DNA of 64,000 nt from a virus: positions 32,293 through 96,292 of the IMG/VR virus record IMGVR_UViG_3300050138_000571; one strand, 5' to 3'. The position numbers and the translations under genes are program-made. The notes under the pieces are model-generated. The model was given only the letters and a program-made list of their open reading frames with translations, did no database searches and had not been told where the DNA came from. This document shows positions 3,463 through 11,536 of the stretch, in pieces (position 1 is the first letter of the stretch; each line of letters opens with the position of its first letter).

Positions 3463-5253
3463 ATGTCCCGTCGCTTCGCCAATTTCGTAAGTTGTCATGT
3501 CCATCCGAACAGCCTCGACAGCGGATCTACTCCGGAGTCGTTCGCTGAACGTGAGGCTGAGCTAGAGACCGGCGCCATCACGTGCACGGATCACGGGACG
3601 CTCCAGGCCGCTCCCAAGATTTACGATCTCGGAAAAGAGAAGGGGCTGACGCCGATCGTCGGCATCGAGGCGTATTTCCGGGATGACGAGTGCAGCATCC
3701 TGACCGCCAACGGCTACCAGAAGAACGAGCGCGGAGGATTCATCAGCGCGCCGAAATACATGCACATCACTTTGCACGCGATGGACTACCTCGCGTACCG
3801 GTGCATGGTCCGGCTGATCTCTCGCGCCGACACCCGCCTCGAAGCTGACAAAGAGCGGATGGAGCCCGTCCACCGGAAAATGGGCAGTGAACGGAAGGCT
3901 TTGTTCCGCTGGGCCGACCTAGAGGAACTGGGCACGCACAATGTGACGGCGACATCAGGCTGCATGACCGGCGTCTGCAAGCGCCACATCCTCGACAATG
4001 ATGACCCGAAAACTGCAATTCAGTACTTCGAGCGCCTCAAGTCCACGTTCAAGCCCGGTAACTTCTACGTCGAGCTGAACCCCCACGACACCAGTCACGA
4101 CTGGATCCAGGGCGTCTTCATCACAACGATCGACGGGACCGAACACAAGCTCTATGACGGGAAGATCGTCATGACGGACGCCGGGGAAATCCGGGCCGGC
4201 CAGCTGGCGAAGGAGTGGACGTTCGGGAAGCATCACATCCTCAAGTCAATCAAGGACCGCAGCAAGTGGCGGGAGATGGCTGAGGCCCAGATAGTCAAGG
4301 TGGAGCAGCGAGAGGGGTTCGACCGCAACGAGTGTCGGCCCTGGGCGCAGGACGGCAACTACGAGGCCGCCTTGAACCGATTCATGTTCATCCTCGCGAA
4401 GAAGCATGGGGTTCCCATCACCATCGGGGACGACTCGCATTACTCGACCGCGGGCTTGGCCATCGTTCAGGACGTGCGGCTCTCTCAGAAAGGGCCGTGG
4501 CGCTTTTACACCGGCGGCAAGCACAACACCTACCACCGGATGACGAGCGACGAGGCCTGGACTCATTTCCAGTCCATGCCGGGAGTCGGTGAGAAGGAAT
4601 TCGAGAGCTGGATCGCCAACTCTCACGACCATGCCAGCCGCTTCAAAGACTTCAAGTTCGAGTCGGTGCCGTCGTTACCGACCAGATTCTACGAGGCCGA
4701 GTACCAAAAGCGGCCCTGGTACGTGACCGGGAAGGCCGACAACAGCATCCGCTACACCATGGAGCTGATCCGCAAGCAAGGCCGGATGCGCTGGGACGAC
4801 GCGAAGTACGTGAGGCGTCTCCGGCAAGAGATCGACTTGCTGCACGGCAACGGAACCATCGATCTGCTGCCGTATTTCATGATCGACGAGGACGTCTGTT
4901 CCACGTACGAGCTGGCAGAGGAGTTGACGGGTCCGGGCCGAGGTTCGGCGGCCGGCGCGCTCATCAGCTATCTCCTCGGGATCACCCACGTCGACCCGCT
5001 CAAGTACGACCTGTCGCTCGACCGCTTCCTGACGAAGGACCGTATCAGCTCGGGGCGCTTGCCCGACATTGACCAGGATCTAAGTAGCCGCGACCTGCTG
5101 ACCGGTGGCGACGGGTCCAACTACGTCGAAATCGAACTGGACGATGGATCGAAAAAGATCGCGCGAGCGACAGCCAAGGTCACCACCGACGAAGGCGAAG
5201 TCACCGTGCAGGAAGCGTTCGATCGCGGCCTCGACATTCGGAGTTGGACATGA
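3463..5253 (+). CDS. dnaE: DNA polymerase III alpha subunit, N-terminal part (PHP and first half of palm)
   Basis: A 596-residue replicative polymerase fragment. The PHP domain begins at once (CHVHPNS, TCTDHG, GIEAYF). The palm contains PGRGSAAGALISYLLG and PDIDQDL, which supplies the first two catalytic aspartates. After SRDLLTGGDG the protein does not continue as a normal DnaE. It has about 45 extra, strand-rich residues (from SNYVEIELDDG to LDIRSWT) and then stops. The third catalytic aspartate is on the next gene, whose ATG overlaps this stop. The two products must therefore associate or be joined to make an active enzyme. Confidence 0.9.
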   Translation: MSRRFANFVSCHVHPNSLDSGSTPESFAEREAELETGAITCTDHGTLQAAPKIYDLGKEKGLTPIVGIEAYFRDDECSILTANGYQKNERGGFISAPKYMHITLHAMDYLAYRCMVRLISRADTRLEADKERMEPVHRKMGSERKALFRWADLEELGTHNVTATSGCMTGVCKRHILDNDDPKTAIQYFERLKSTFKPGNFYVELNPHDTSHDWIQGVFITTIDGTEHKLYDGKIVMTDAGEIRAGQLAKEWTFGKHHILKSIKDRSKWREMAEAQIVKVEQREGFDRNECRPWAQDGNYEAALNRFMFILAKKHGVPITIGDDSHYSTAGLAIVQDVRLSQKGPWRFYTGGKHNTYHRMTSDEAWTHFQSMPGVGEKEFESWIANSHDHASRFKDFKFESVPSLPTRFYEAEYQKRPWYVTGKADNSIRYTMELIRKQGRMRWDDAKYVRRLRQEIDLLHGNGTIDLLPYFMIDEDVCSTYELAEELTGPGRGSAAGALISYLLGITHVDPLKYDLSLDRFLTKDRISSGRLPDIDQDLSSRDLLTGGDGSNYVEIELDDGSKKIARATAKVTTDEGEVTVQEAFDRGLDIRSWT

Positions 5254-7688
5254 AAATCACGTCCTTGAAGGTCGTGTCGGACGCCGAGAGCGGCTGGCTC
5301 CATCGCAGGTTCGGGGACCATGTCGCCCAGATCTCGGTCGAGACGAAGATGAAGATGCGGCTCGCAGTCCGCGACGTCTCCCGCCAACAGAGAGGCTACG
5401 TTAACCCTGAAATCGAGCTTTTGGCCAAGAAGTTCCCGGAGCCGCCTCAAGGCGTGGAGGACCTCGACTTCGTCCTCGGATACGACAATGACGAGGGGCA
5501 CCAGCAAGGCGCCATCGAGGTCGATGCGGCCATCCAGGAGTACGTACGCCTCTACCCCGGGGACTGGGAGATCGTGCAGCAGTGCCTCGGGTTGGCGCGG
5601 CAGCGCTCCCGGCACGCGTGCGCCTACGTCATCGGCAATGAACCCATAGAGCAGATGATCCCGCTCACCACCGTCGGTGGAGTGCGAGTCACGGCCTACA
5701 ACGCTCCTGCCGTCGAGGCCGTTGGGGGCCTCAAGATGGACTTCTTGGTCGTCAACTCGCTGAAGGACATCGGCGACTGCATCAAGCTGATCCAGAAGCG
5801 GCACCCGGAGTTCGAGTACAAAGAGAGTTCGATCAACGGGCTCCGGGTGCCCCGGTTTCGCCAGATCCCGGCCCCCGGCGGCCTGGCCGACATCTGGGAT
5901 CTTCCGGACGATCAAAACGTGTTCATGGACGTGTCGCAAGGCCGCACGGAGACCGTCTTCCAGTTCAACACCGAGGGCGCAATCAAGTGGTTGAAGCACT
6001 TCAACTACAAGAAGCCCAACGGGAACTTCGCGATCGATTCGATCGCAACGATGGCCTATTTCACCGCGCTCGACCGTCCCGGCCCCCTCAACGCCTACGT
6101 GTCCAACCCCGAAGAAGAGGACGCCAAGCACAACATGCTCGTCGAGTATGCGCGTCGCGCCCGCGGAGCCCCGAAGAGCCCAGACATTCTGCCGATCTTC
6201 GACGAGCTGCTCCCCCACATGAACGGCATCATGATCACGCAGGAAGCGATGCAGTACATGTACCAGACCCTAACAGGGTGTTCTGGTCCCGAGGCCGAGG
6301 AGTTTCGCTCGAACGTCGCCAAGAAGAAGATGACGAAGGTCGAGAAAGCCTACCTACCATTCATCGAGTCCGCGGCCCGGAAGATCGGCAAAGAGAACGC
6401 CGAGGCCGTGTGGAAGAACTTCATCACGTTCGGCCAGTACGGCTTCAATTTCAGCCACGCCGTCTGCTACTCCGTCATAGGCTATGCCTGTGCCTACCTG
6501 AAGCACCACTATCCGCTGGAGTGGTGGGCGTCCGTGCTCTCGAACGCCTCGAAAAACGAGGTGTCCGACAAGTTCTGGGTGCATTGCGGGCAGCTCATCA
6601 AGCTTCCCGACGTCACGAAGTCCGGGGACAGGTTCACGATCGCAGGGGACTACATTCAGGCCCCGCTGAACGTGATCAAAGGGGTCGGCGACGGCGCCCA
6701 CGCTCAGCTCTCGAAGTACGGGCCCTACATGGACATCCTCGATTTCTGCCGAAAGATAGAGAAGCACCGCGTGGCCGGCGGCGGATACGTCATGAAGACG
6801 GTGAAGTACAAGGACAAAGACAACAAGGTCCTTAATCCGGAAACCGGTCGACTGGTTTCGACCGACGCCACCAAGGAGAAGCGGACGTTCAAAAGGGGAC
6901 CCAACGCGCTCAATGCTGGCGTCGTCAACGTGTTGATGGCGTCTGGCGCAATGGACGGCCTGTTTGCGGAAGGTCTCACCCTCGCAGAACAGATGGTCGA
7001 ATACGAGGCCGCGATGGCCGCGGCAGAGACCGAGACCAACATGGCCAAGGCAGAAAAAGGGGAGGTCGTCCGCCCCGTTAAACCAAAGAAGGTGGATCCG
7101 AGCGACTTCAACCTCAATGGTTTACAGCAGTACCAGTCCCGCAAGGCCGTGTTGCCGATCTATGGCGCCGACCTCATCCCTATGGTGATTCGCTCGGGCA
7201 AACTCGATACCCTCAAGCAGTACCCGGGCCGTGCACTTATGGAGTGGACCTCACCGTTCAACGGAAAGGCCAGCGTCATCAAAGTGATTAACGCCGACGA
7301 GTTGTCTCACGACGAGGACTTTGTCGTAAAGGACAAGAAATCGATCAATGTGGCAGTCGCCGCGTACATCGAAGACGTCGAGATCCGTAAGTATGGACCG
7401 CTGCTAAAAGAAATGGTTAAGGTCAAGCTCGACGTTGAAGGAGCGCGCTTCGAGTTGGTCAAATTCTCCGGCAAAGCAGGCCTAGTCCCAGATTGCTTCC
7501 GGCAACCGCTGAAGGGGGCAATCGCGATCGTGGTCCTGAATAAGTGGACAAACGATCGTCCTTTTGGGCCCGAAGCCGTGTTCGTGATCGAGCCACCAAT
7601 GTCCCACTCAAGGGCAGGAGCGGAGGATTGCGGGCCCGCGACCCCCTCAGCCAACAATGACGGGAGCGAGGCCTCGGAGGTTCCGTAG
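5250..7688 (+). CDS. dnaE: DNA polymerase III alpha subunit, C-terminal part
   Basis: An 812-residue continuation of the split polymerase. The ATG at 5250 overlaps the TGA of the first part (ATGA). About 13 non-homologous residues (MKITSLKVVSDAE) come before SGWLHRRFGDHVAQIS, which picks up the alpha-subunit alignment just after the break. LKMDFLVV supplies the third palm aspartate. Fingers motifs (RPGPL; TQEAMQ; YGFNFSHAVCYSVIGY) and an HhH-like GVGDGA segment are intact. The C-terminal third diverges and lacks an obvious tau-binding tail. Start and stop suggest translational coupling at roughly equal levels. Confidence 0.9.
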   Translation: MKITSLKVVSDAESGWLHRRFGDHVAQISVETKMKMRLAVRDVSRQQRGYVNPEIELLAKKFPEPPQGVEDLDFVLGYDNDEGHQQGAIEVDAAIQEYVRLYPGDWEIVQQCLGLARQRSRHACAYVIGNEPIEQMIPLTTVGGVRVTAYNAPAVEAVGGLKMDFLVVNSLKDIGDCIKLIQKRHPEFEYKESSINGLRVPRFRQIPAPGGLADIWDLPDDQNVFMDVSQGRTETVFQFNTEGAIKWLKHFNYKKPNGNFAIDSIATMAYFTALDRPGPLNAYVSNPEEEDAKHNMLVEYARRARGAPKSPDILPIFDELLPHMNGIMITQEAMQYMYQTLTGCSGPEAEEFRSNVAKKKMTKVEKAYLPFIESAARKIGKENAEAVWKNFITFGQYGFNFSHAVCYSVIGYACAYLKHHYPLEWWASVLSNASKNEVSDKFWVHCGQLIKLPDVTKSGDRFTIAGDYIQAPLNVIKGVGDGAHAQLSKYGPYMDILDFCRKIEKHRVAGGGYVMKTVKYKDKDNKVLNPETGRLVSTDATKEKRTFKRGPNALNAGVVNVLMASGAMDGLFAEGLTLAEQMVEYEAAMAAAETETNMAKAEKGEVVRPVKPKKVDPSDFNLNGLQQYQSRKAVLPIYGADLIPMVIRSGKLDTLKQYPGRALMEWTSPFNGKASVIKVINADELSHDEDFVVKDKKSINVAVAAYIEDVEIRKYGPLLKEMVKVKLDVEGARFELVKFSGKAGLVPDCFRQPLKGAIAIVVLNKWTNDRPFGPEAVFVIEPPMSHSRAGAEDCGPATPSANNDGSEASEVP

Positions 7689-7728: not shown

Positions 7729-8514
7729 ATGAACAAACGACCTCTCAAGACAATCCTCGCCGACATCGCCGACAACGACGAGACCATGGCGCGCGACCTG
7801 GAGGCCCTTCCCCCGAGCGTCCGCCCTGGTCACCAGGGCGCGATCCGCCGTGCTCAGGAGGCGGCCCCCGTGCTTCTGCAGGAGTACCGGGATGCGGTGC
7901 TCGCCAACTCCCTGGCCTTCTTCGTATCGGGAGGCGCGGAGGGTGCCATCGAACAGTTCGCGGAGATCGCCTACAACGAGGGAGCGCTGCCGGCTGACTT
8001 CGGTGAGATGTACGCCACCCTGGCCGAACGGCTGGGGCCCCTTATGGGCAAATCCACGGACTTTGGGATGGATCAGGTCGTGCGCCTGGACTTTCTTCTC
8101 CGGGGTATCGCCACCGTGTCCAGGTTCGGCCGCGCCGTCGACCTGCCGCGCGGCGGAGCCTCAGCGAACCACGCGATCAAAAGCAAGCAGGACCTGGTCG
8201 ACCACATCCGGAAGCTCGCCGAGACGACAGCAGATGGGCCCAAGCTGAACATCCTCGTAACGACCAAAAAACTGATCGAGGCGGCGGTGGCGCATCAGTT
8301 CGCGCGGAAGACTTTCAAGGTCGTGGTCATCAACGCAAGCGCGGCCGACCGCGCGCTCTTGGAGCCCCTGTTTACCAGAAACGTTACGGTCGATCTGACC
8401 AACGTTGCAACGATCGACGCCGGCTTCGTTGTCGGGACGTTCAAACAGGGGCGCAACGAGACGCCACCGGGTGTGCCGACTGTTGTGCCCCCGGCCCCCG
8501 ACGCGACGCCCTAG
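7729..8514 (+). CDS. Hypothetical protein in the replication operon
   Basis: A 261-residue protein with an AAAGGA ribosome binding site 6 nt before ATG. The N-terminal 100 residues are helical and acidic; residues 140-240 alternate strands and helices (LNILVTTKKLIEAAV, FKVVVINAS, VTVDLTNVATIDAGFVVGTF), suggesting a small alpha/beta fold. The tail is Pro-rich. Its place between the polymerase and the ssDNA-binding candidate suggests a replication accessory role. No family recognised. Confidence 0.7.
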   Translation: MNKRPLKTILADIADNDETMARDLEALPPSVRPGHQGAIRRAQEAAPVLLQEYRDAVLANSLAFFVSGGAEGAIEQFAEIAYNEGALPADFGEMYATLAERLGPLMGKSTDFGMDQVVRLDFLLRGIATVSRFGRAVDLPRGGASANHAIKSKQDLVDHIRKLAETTADGPKLNILVTTKKLIEAAVAHQFARKTFKVVVINASAADRALLEPLFTRNVTVDLTNVATIDAGFVVGTFKQGRNETPPGVPTVVPPAPDATP

Positions 8515-8517
8515 GGG

Positions 8518-8530
8518 GCGTTCGCTATAG
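8518..8530 (+). promoter_or_regulatory. Class A motif, long spacing
   Basis: GCGTTCGCTATAG just after the TAG of the preceding gene. The start codon at 8576 is 45 nt downstream and has GGAG 7 nt before it, giving a normal leader. Confidence 0.75.
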
Positions 8531-8575
8531 GTAGATCGAAACGATAACGCAACGAGACACGCAACGGAGAAATGA

Positions 8576-9820
8576 ATGAGCAACGTTTTCGGTACCCCCA
8601 AGTTCGGCAATTCAGGCGGTGACTTCAAGAAGACCCGGACGGTCGGAGCAGGAGACACCTATTTCCGCGCGCTGCCGCCGATGTTCTCGCTTCGCGAGAG
8701 CGGCGATTGGAGGAAGTACTTCGCCACGCACTGGGGCTACGAGGCAGTCAGCGAGCGTGACCCGTCGAAGACGTTCCAGAAGCCGTTCCGCTGCATCCTC
8801 GACAAGGACCGGCGCACGGGCCTCGTTCGTCAGGAATGCCCTGGCTGCATGAAGCGCGCTGAGGTCGAGAAGGAGCTGGCAGACAAAGAGAAGGCGATCC
8901 GCGCCGAGATGGTCGGAAAAGACGAGGCCGTGATCGTTGCCCGCCTGACCAAGGAGCTGGCCTCGATCAACGAGTGGCTGGAGGACCATCGGGTCGATGG
9001 CAAGTGGTACATCAACGCCAAATTCAAGGACGGGACGTTCGGCAGCATCAAGCTGAATCACAAGTTCCACATGGCGCGAATGATCGAGATCATCAATGGA
9101 AAGCCGGCAACCGCGACGACTGCGGCGGTGCCGGGCCTGATGGAAGCCGAAGGGATCAATCCGCTAGACCCGAGCCAGGGCGTGTGGTTCGTGGTGTCAC
9201 GTACCGGATCCAAGCGGTCGGTCGTCGACACGATGAACTACGAGGTGGAGAACGTGCTCGCCGAGGTCGAGGTGAATGGTGTGAAGCAGAAGCGGACGCT
9301 CAAGCAGATCGTCCTGGCGCCCCTCACCGACGAAGAGTGCGAGAAAGCCGGCGTCGACTGCGAGGACTTGGCGTCCCTCGGCGGGGCAGCTCTCACGTAC
9401 GAGCAGATCGATGCGCTCGTGAACGGCGCCCCCTCGGTCGAGGTTGATCCGGAGCCGTCGCTGGCCGAGCAGGTGGCCGAACGCCGGGCCAGAGAGACCG
9501 CGATGGCCGAGGCCACGATCGAAGCCGACAAGGTAGCTAAGGCTGCCGCCAAGGAGGCTGAGGCGAAGAAGGTCGCGGCAGCGACTGTTCCGGCCCCCGA
9601 GGCAAAGAAGCAGGAACCCGCGGTCATCGCCGCGCAGAGCGAGGCCATAAAGAAGCGCCTGGCCGAGATCGCCGCCCGTGAAGCTGCGAAGAAGGCCGAG
9701 GAAGAGGCCACGCGACAGGCCGCTGCAGCCGCAGCGGAGCCAGCCGCCGTCGCCGACATCGCCGCCATGAGCGACGCCGACTTCCTGCGGGACTTCGGTC
9801 CGGGCGCGGGGATGGCGTAA
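8576..9820 (+). CDS. Probable single-stranded DNA-binding protein (gp32-like)
   Basis: A 414-residue protein. Residues 1-200 contain aromatic and basic strands (YFRALPPMFSL, YEAVSERDPSK, WYINAKFKDG) and a CxnCxxC cluster ending in ECPGC near residue 85, as in zinc-bearing T4 gp32-type proteins. The C-terminal 120 residues are Ala/Glu/Lys-rich, low complexity and helical, and end in an acidic stretch (MSDADFLRDFG) like the protein-interaction tail of SSBs. Its position between polymerase and RecA-like genes supports the call. It is adjacent to the next gene with no gap. Confidence 0.6.
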   Translation: MSNVFGTPKFGNSGGDFKKTRTVGAGDTYFRALPPMFSLRESGDWRKYFATHWGYEAVSERDPSKTFQKPFRCILDKDRRTGLVRQECPGCMKRAEVEKELADKEKAIRAEMVGKDEAVIVARLTKELASINEWLEDHRVDGKWYINAKFKDGTFGSIKLNHKFHMARMIEIINGKPATATTAAVPGLMEAEGINPLDPSQGVWFVVSRTGSKRSVVDTMNYEVENVLAEVEVNGVKQKRTLKQIVLAPLTDEECEKAGVDCEDLASLGGAALTYEQIDALVNGAPSVEVDPEPSLAEQVAERRARETAMAEATIEADKVAKAAAKEAEAKKVAAATVPAPEAKKQEPAVIAAQSEAIKKRLAEIAAREAAKKAEEEATRQAAAAAAEPAAVADIAAMSDADFLRDFGPGAGMA

Positions 9821-10438: not shown

Positions 10439-11536
10439 ATGGCGAAGAAATGGCTGACGGCGTTGCAGAAGATGGACGGGGCTGTATTGGGGAACTACAA
10501 CCCCAACGATCACGTGCTGCGGAGCCCGTCTCCGTCGTTCAATTTCATGTTCGGCAACGGACACGGATTGGCGCAGGGGTTCACTATGGTCCTGGGTGGC
10601 GTCCCCAAGGGCGGCAAGAGCGTCATCTGCAACTCGATGATCGGGCAGCTCCACAAGGATGACCCGGAAGCAATCGCCATCAAGTTCGACACCGAGTTCC
10701 GAGAGTCGGGACAGCTCACCGACGAGCAGTCGAGCCTGTGGGGCATCGATCGCGATCGATACATCTGCTACCAGCTCAACGCCGCCACAGAGGTGTTCGA
10801 TCGAATCGAGAAGGAGATCGCGGCGATGTGCCAGGAGGGGATGCCCCTCAAGATGATCATCATCGACTCGATCAATGCTCTCATGGGCGTCCGCAGCCAG
10901 AACTCGGATGGACTCGAAGCGCAGGTAAACCAGTTCGGCGACCTCGCCCGCGCGCTCCCCGAGGCCTTCAAGCGGATCGTCGGGATGCAGCGGAAATACC
11001 GCATCGGCCTGATCTTGACGTGTCACGTTCGCGCGGAGATGGACGCGAAGGAAGTGATGCGGACAGGGTCCAAGACGAGGCTGGCGCTCCCGTTCGGCGC
11101 CGCCCACTTCGCAGAGACCTTCGTCTCCGTCGAGCCGAATCGCAACAAGGATGCCAAAACGGACCTCTCCGGCAACGAGTTCAGGGACGAGTCCCTGGGC
11201 GACATCGCAGACAACGCCGAGCAGACCGGCCACAAGATCCGGGCGAAGGTCGTGAACGCCTCGATGGGACCCAAGGGCCGCGTGGCCGAGTTCACCCTCG
11301 ACTACCACAAAGGGATCATCAACACCCACGAAGAGGTCTTCCTCCTTGGCAAGAACCGCGGCGTCCTGAAGCAGCCGAACCAGCTATCGTATGAGTTCGA
11401 GGGTCAGAAGTGGGTCGGCAAGCAGGCGATGCTGGACGCGCTGGCGAAGGACAAAACCCTCTACGACAAGGTCCTCGCTGAGGTCTACCGCCAGGACACG
11501 AACCACAACGAGCCCGAAGACGCTGCGGCGGCCTAG
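10439..11536 (+). CDS. RecA/UvsX-like recombinase
   Basis: A 365-residue ATPase with the RecA core. The Walker A site is GVPKGGKS (about residues 53-61). The Walker B strand is MIIIDSINAL near residue 140. LILTCHVRAEMD looks like the strand after Walker B. AAGGAG lies 8 nt before the ATG. It should form filaments on ssDNA for strand exchange in phage replication and repair. It ends the rightward replication block. Its stop codon overlaps that of the convergent gene. Confidence 0.85.
   Translation: MAKKWLTALQKMDGAVLGNYNPNDHVLRSPSPSFNFMFGNGHGLAQGFTMVLGGVPKGGKSVICNSMIGQLHKDDPEAIAIKFDTEFRESGQLTDEQSSLWGIDRDRYICYQLNAATEVFDRIEKEIAAMCQEGMPLKMIIIDSINALMGVRSQNSDGLEAQVNQFGDLARALPEAFKRIVGMQRKYRIGLILTCHVRAEMDAKEVMRTGSKTRLALPFGAAHFAETFVSVEPNRNKDAKTDLSGNEFRDESLGDIADNAEQTGHKIRAKVVNASMGPKGRVAEFTLDYHKGIINTHEEVFLLGKNRGVLKQPNQLSYEFEGQKWVGKQAMLDALAKDKTLYDKVLAEVYRQDTNHNEPEDAAAA

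Follow-up and report, generated by a model that had tools for sequence, protein, structure and literature searches.

How does a replicative DNA polymerase work when its gene is cut in two within the active site? The question is raised by a 64-kb stretch of DNA (the window, positions 32,293-96,292 of the 96-kb virus record IMGVR_UViG_3300050138_000571 in IMG/VR), in which a DnaE-type DNA polymerase is encoded as two adjacent genes. The cut through the active site was confirmed: the motif PDIDQDL with the first two catalytic aspartates is located on gene 1, the third aspartate, D164 in LKMDF, on gene 2, and the Pfam model DNA_pol3_alpha (PF07733) was matched in two pieces, model positions 20-111 in gene 1 and 121-259 in gene 2. 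Combined, the two genes present the features of a C-family (DnaE) polymerase, three catalytic aspartates in the palm, a PHP domain and the fingers. No further match to PF07733 or to any C-family polymerase was present anywhere on the 96-kb record, and a search for a PolA-family polymerase was negative as well, on a record that may be a fragment. Both gene ends facing the cut carry extra residues, here called the tail (end of gene 1) and the head (start of gene 2). They are probably the remains of a decayed split intein, retained as a non-covalent docking pair for the two polymerase chains.

The alignment to DnaE proteins ended at SRD(LL) in gene 1 and restarted at (G)WLHRRFG in gene 2. Because the closest annotated unsplit homologue, from Myxococcus phage Mx1, reads PDIDMDFPDRDLLIHPETGWLYRRFG in a single frame, approximately 45 residues after DLLTGGDG (S552-T596 of gene 1) and 13 residues ahead of SGWLHRRFG (M1-E13 of gene 2) count as additions. 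A first-pass annotation of the nucleotide sequence had placed the break between the second and the third aspartate, with additions of this size at the joint, and both statements hold; the serines it pointed out on the two flanks are present in the window, but they are not conserved and appear incidental. The start codon of gene 2 lies in the -1 frame relative to gene 1, and the overlap of the two genes likely reflects translational coupling (Table 1). The same split, with the same kind of ends, was present on an independent contig of 92%/91% identity. Altogether, 13 distinct viral contigs (the window, this relative and 11 more) were cut at the same point, the PDID site, and carried a homologous tail and head, the two co-occurring in every split case found. 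One uninterrupted gene, free of the end sequences, was observed at this site in 26 relatives including Mx1. A further scan with the tails yielded no additional contig. Single-tail tblastn searches against 50,697 phage records gave no match for the PDID-site tails; only the tail of one polymerase cut elsewhere (L073) led to a group, the SSU5-like phages. The two genes abut or overlap in the window and in L001, L010, L020, L040, L042, L051 and L071; on others the halves are 238-1244 bases apart or in different frames.

Table 1. Coordinates of the split polymerase genes and their motifs in the window
Feature	Position	Strand	Description
Gene 1	3463..5253	+	596 amino acids, ending in ...RSWT and stop; N-terminal polymerase half with PHP domain, first palm part with Asp 1 and Asp 2, putative docking tail at the end
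Gene 2	5250..7688	+	812 amino acids; C-terminal polymerase part with rest of palm, fingers, HhH region
PDIDQDL	5062..5082	+	Gene 1 residues 534-540; catalytic Asp 1 = D535, Asp 2 = D537; aligned to solved DnaE
Catalytic Asp 3	5739..5741	+	D164 of gene 2, within LKMDFLVV
Tail, 45 extra residues SNYVEIELDDGSKKIARATAKVTTDEGEVTVQEAFDRGLDIRSWT	5116..5250	+	Homologous to later part of split-intein N-half (block-B hairpin and next helix); without block A and TxxH histidine
GGAG, candidate ribosome-binding site of gene 2	5240..5243	+	7-10 bases upstream of ATG; retained in 92% identical relative
ATGA	5250..5253	+	Gene 2 start overlapping gene 1 stop
Head, 13 extra residues MKITSLKVVSDAE	5250..5288	+	Positioned like the first strand of an intein C-half; without block F/G and terminal Asn

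The tail was not recognised by Pfam and PHROGs, and the Pfam intein model had no match in the record. A hidden Markov model (HMM) of the tail only was used to scan the collected loci in all six frames, 12,714 segments altogether. The best matches other than tails were N-halves of inteins: that of L074, where a different phage polymerase has a complete split intein (N-half ending in VYEIELEDGSTMRLTDDHMVATTDGWISVREAFEKGIEILCVNT; E = 4e-10), those of the split inteins of L009 and L013 (E = 2e-4) and, more weakly, the inteins of L015, L016 and L017. The best E value in the reversed-sequence control was 4.2. Profile-to-profile alignment (hhalign) of the tail with intein N-halves covered 42 co-linear columns with a probability of 97.4 and a score of 57.8; 40 column-shuffled control profiles scored at most 13.9. 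Among the comparison sequences, Pfam identified Hint or intein domains in L074, L013 and L001, for L001 below the curated cut-off. Judged by these profiles, the tail is homologous to the Hint domain, namely to the later part of an intein N-half, and is not polymerase. The first-pass annotation had suspected an intein fold in the 45-residue piece from its strand pattern and is supported in this; the finding it named as a refutation, that the extra residues are ordinary polymerase, is contradicted by their alignment with inteins. The relatives share the tail pattern V-E-(I/F/V)-E-x-(E/D)-D-G-(S/T), then (I/V)-x-T-x-x-G, then a short helix. The head reads MK(I/F)xxIT in most relatives and takes the position at which intein C-halves start (MKIISARI in L013). 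A faintly tail-like hairpin pattern was also noticed in an insert of the PHP domain (GVFITTIDGTEHKLYDGKIVMTDAGEIRAGQLAK, gene 1 residues ~217-250, nucleotides 4111-4212). As a second copy of the tail this insert was rejected, the tail-HMM match being weak and a corresponding insert being present in unsplit relatives.

Tail and head are under purifying selection. Between the window and the 92% identical relative, the ratio of non-synonymous to synonymous substitution rates (dN/dS) was 0.125 for the tail and 0.046 for the head, with 0.073 for the polymerase body of gene 1. Plain decay would have left the ends as functionless remnants, and the halves would associate by polymerase surfaces alone; a large interface between split polymerase halves may make docking elements unnecessary. 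The selection is comparable to that on the polymerase, the ends are conserved across contigs with about 50% polymerase identity, and both were kept together in all split cases, so that we regard plain decay as unlikely.

Endonuclease genes were located between the polymerase halves of several relatives. L015 had an open reading frame (ORF) matching Endonuclease_7 (Pfam, 1.6e-11) and L016 the same Endonuclease VII-type ORF in truncated form; in L072 an endonuclease VII ORF was encoded on the opposite strand (7e-24). Endonuclease ORFs also separated the halves in L073, L078 and L120, and none is left in the window. Further ORFs, in L017 at 4697-5940 and in L043 at 8810-9236 (between the halves), had no significant Pfam match and present no recognised endonuclease. 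Tail and head might be nothing but the read-out of non-coding DNA after an endonuclease gene had landed in the polymerase gene, the likeness to inteins being convergent. The intervening endonuclease ORFs and the documented case of Aeh1 NrdA speak for this origin. It is, however, quite unlikely: the co-linear match to intein N-halves far exceeds the shuffled controls, the tails are homologous across two sites and two DnaE subfamilies, and their end point is that of natural split inteins.

An unusual but active split intein would trans-splice the two products to one polymerase chain, in line with the homology of the tail to split-intein N-halves and with the functional-looking split inteins at other places in this gene family (L009, L013, L074). 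Block A with its nucleophile (Cys, Ser or Thr at position 1, beside the extein) was missing in 13 of 13 contigs, because the tail opens nearly at once with the block-B hairpin, leaving few residues between this hairpin and the polymerase. The histidine of the block-B motif TxxH was replaced in all 13 as well (ATAK in the window, ASAQ in L001, PEDF, PKDF or RGDD elsewhere). Blocks F and G of the C-half and a terminal (His-)Asn followed by Cys, Ser or Thr were found neither in the window nor in any relative. At the window junction, the head MKITSLKVVSDAE is followed by S-G-W; heads end in DAE, DAD, TFP, AEP or YFP and comprise 13-25 residues, versus about 35 in a real intein C-half. As far as sequence can tell, ends devoid of every splicing element examined should not splice, and the fused SSU5-like form described below stays in frame without splice residues. 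We therefore hold trans-splicing to be very improbable. The first-pass annotation had left the choice between an unusual split intein, a decayed intein and a docking pair; the latter two are supported jointly, with docking as their presumed outcome, while the missing splicing elements leave the active intein unsupported. A sequencing error, which the same annotation had considered, or a programmed -1 frameshift at 5250, either resulting in one protein and suggested by the 4-base overlap in the -1 frame, can be dismissed, since the same split recurs in independent contigs, the halves elsewhere are separated by hundreds of bases or lie in other frames, and gene 2 of L010 directly follows an in-frame TAG.

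The decayed split intein, retained as a docking pair, may have originated as follows. A split intein, its halves flanking a homing-endonuclease gene, would once have interrupted the polymerase gene between DLL and GWL. The endonuclease gene would then have been lost, and because of this loss the coding regions would now overlap. With the intein N-half cut short at its beginning and the C-half at its end, the splicing chemistry would have been lost as well. The remainder would be the region in which the intein halves meet: gene 1 would end in a beta hairpin with a helix, and gene 2 would open with a beta strand. Tail and head most likely pair in the manner of Hint-domain halves and keep the two polymerase chains associated non-covalently, and the pairing would let Asp 1 and Asp 2 form one complete active site with Asp 3. 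Such a docking role would fit ends that are homologous to inteins, lack the splicing elements and are conserved.

The joined ends were modelled with AlphaFold2 for L010, in which a joined chain can be predicted because the two genes share one frame, with gene 2 beginning after the TAG; the alignment rows were polymerases only, no intein was included. In comparison to solved structures, the expected DnaE matches were obtained with Z scores up to 17. Residues 104-170 of the model superposed on residues 52-114 of the Npu DnaE intein (Z 5.5, root-mean-square deviation 2.8 A, 61 residues), a range which we take to span the natural split position of that intein. The model also superposed on gp41-1, MsmDnaB and other inteins (Z 4-5.5), in register across the natural split, the head strand being of low confidence. 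The tail formed a hairpin-helix unit with strands at a predicted local distance difference test (pLDDT) of 74-90. The intein superposition carries weight because it agrees with the sequence evidence. Several points weigh against a docking pair of intein descent. The ends of L010 were joined artificially, with the stop codon read as Gln, and the head strand was modelled with low confidence (pLDDT ~52, then <50). A Z score of 5.5 is modest and, by the tool's own note, not decisive alone. The head has too few residues for its homology to be tested from sequence, and its dN/dS rests on 14 codons. In the polymerase tree, the split contigs fell into three groups, therefore either the insertion occurred repeatedly, possibly through homing, or the interruption disappeared on several occasions; the three split clades could be three independent insertions without a common history.

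A related tail is present in L073 at another point of a bacterial-type DnaE, the second site; the DnaE of E. coli has no such module there. Polymerases split at this site with HNH genes between the halves were found in L073, L078 and L120, with Klebsiella phage p4727 among the cases. SSU5 itself and 26 SSU5-like viral contigs carry the module fused in one open frame, in which it is kept without splice residues. The SSU5-type insert aligned to the tails with an hhalign probability of 95.7, and to inteins with 54.7. The same truncated form at two sites in company of unrelated endonucleases (Endonuclease VII type, NUMOD3-HNH, NUMOD4-HNH) points to a mobile element: the dock-endonuclease-dock unit may be stable in itself, a non-splicing relative of inteins that homes into DNA polymerase genes and leaves the host protein docked non-covalently or, as in the SSU5-like phages, resealed in frame. 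We consider this broader interpretation possible rather than probable. A tail-like mini-domain was fused in-frame in the DnaE of L076, L077, L079 and L080, and the gene was split around an HNH gene in the close relatives L078, L082, L120 and L130. L122 and L120 have near-identical split genes that differ in the presence of the intervening HNH gene, which suggests that the endonuclease was recently lost or gained.

Inteins, several of them split, occupy other sites of the same phage polymerase family (RHA/C, GFN/C, VM/C, SRG/C and the DDSH region) in L009, L013, L017, L019, L020, L056, L071 and L074. A Ser1 intein (GFNQ/SIDGDT...VVTSN/SHAV) is present in gene 2 of the closest relative of the window, L001 (~7991-9280), and in L002 and L007; the window is without it. 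Within the Ser1 intein of L001, an ORF in another frame (8265-9326) had a weak match to HNH endonucleases. Gene 2 of L010, L040 and L043 contains a zinc-ribbon-like CxxC...CxxC insert in the palm region after about residue 50. Downstream in the replication cluster of the window, a RecA-like recombination protein is encoded at 10439-11536, as in Mx1.

The closest known parallel is NrdA-a/NrdA-b of the class I ribonucleotide reductase of phage Aeh1: the gene of the alpha subunit was split by insertion of the homing endonuclease mobE, and the two chains assemble as (alpha-a + alpha-b)2 beta2, a complex that is active (Crona et al. 2011, as cited in PMC3267527; also PMC3653736). Both cases present an essential enzyme of nucleotide or DNA synthesis that is cut in its catalytic region by a mobile element and has extra end sequences, with no splicing expected. 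Polymerase genes cut by a homing-endonuclease gene were found in the five relatives listed above with ORFs between the halves (L015, L072, L073, L078, L120). The end sequences are confined to the split form at the PDID site; the module at the second site occurs in fused form as well. In contrast to Aeh1, the ends described here would be derived from a split intein. They recur at a single site across 13 contigs, a further DnaE group has them at a second site, and they outlast the endonuclease. The Aeh1 tails, reportedly found by Crona and co-workers in 2011 to be needed for activity, show, when compared by eye, no obvious similarity to those described here. Fractured genes whose parts carry split-intein halves and enclose a free-standing endonuclease were reportedly described by Dassa and co-workers in 2009. 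This layout, gene half and intein N-half, endonuclease gene, intein C-half and gene half, is that of L015, L073 and L078; the intein halves here, however, are truncated and without splicing residues, and the product should therefore stay two chains. The Npu and Ssp DnaE inteins share the split intein fold within a DnaE polymerase, but are inserted at a different site, and the cyanobacterial intein splices, whereas block A, the block-B histidine and blocks F and G are missing here. Inteins and endonucleases in split phage genes have been reviewed, including an intein trace between the split nrdA halves of the Listeria phages A511 and P100 (PMC3653736). Our searches of the open-licence literature brought up no account of split inteins that have lost splicing and serve as docking ends.

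If the proposed docking is true, a cell-like replicative polymerase can function with its catalytic aspartates divided between two chains. It would also represent a natural route from a selfish splicing element to a useful docking tag, the steps of which are directly comparable because near relatives among the phages represent three states of the module: split around an endonuclease, split with no endonuclease, and fused. As a tool, the docking pair may offer a small, ready-made way to join the halves of a protein without splicing.

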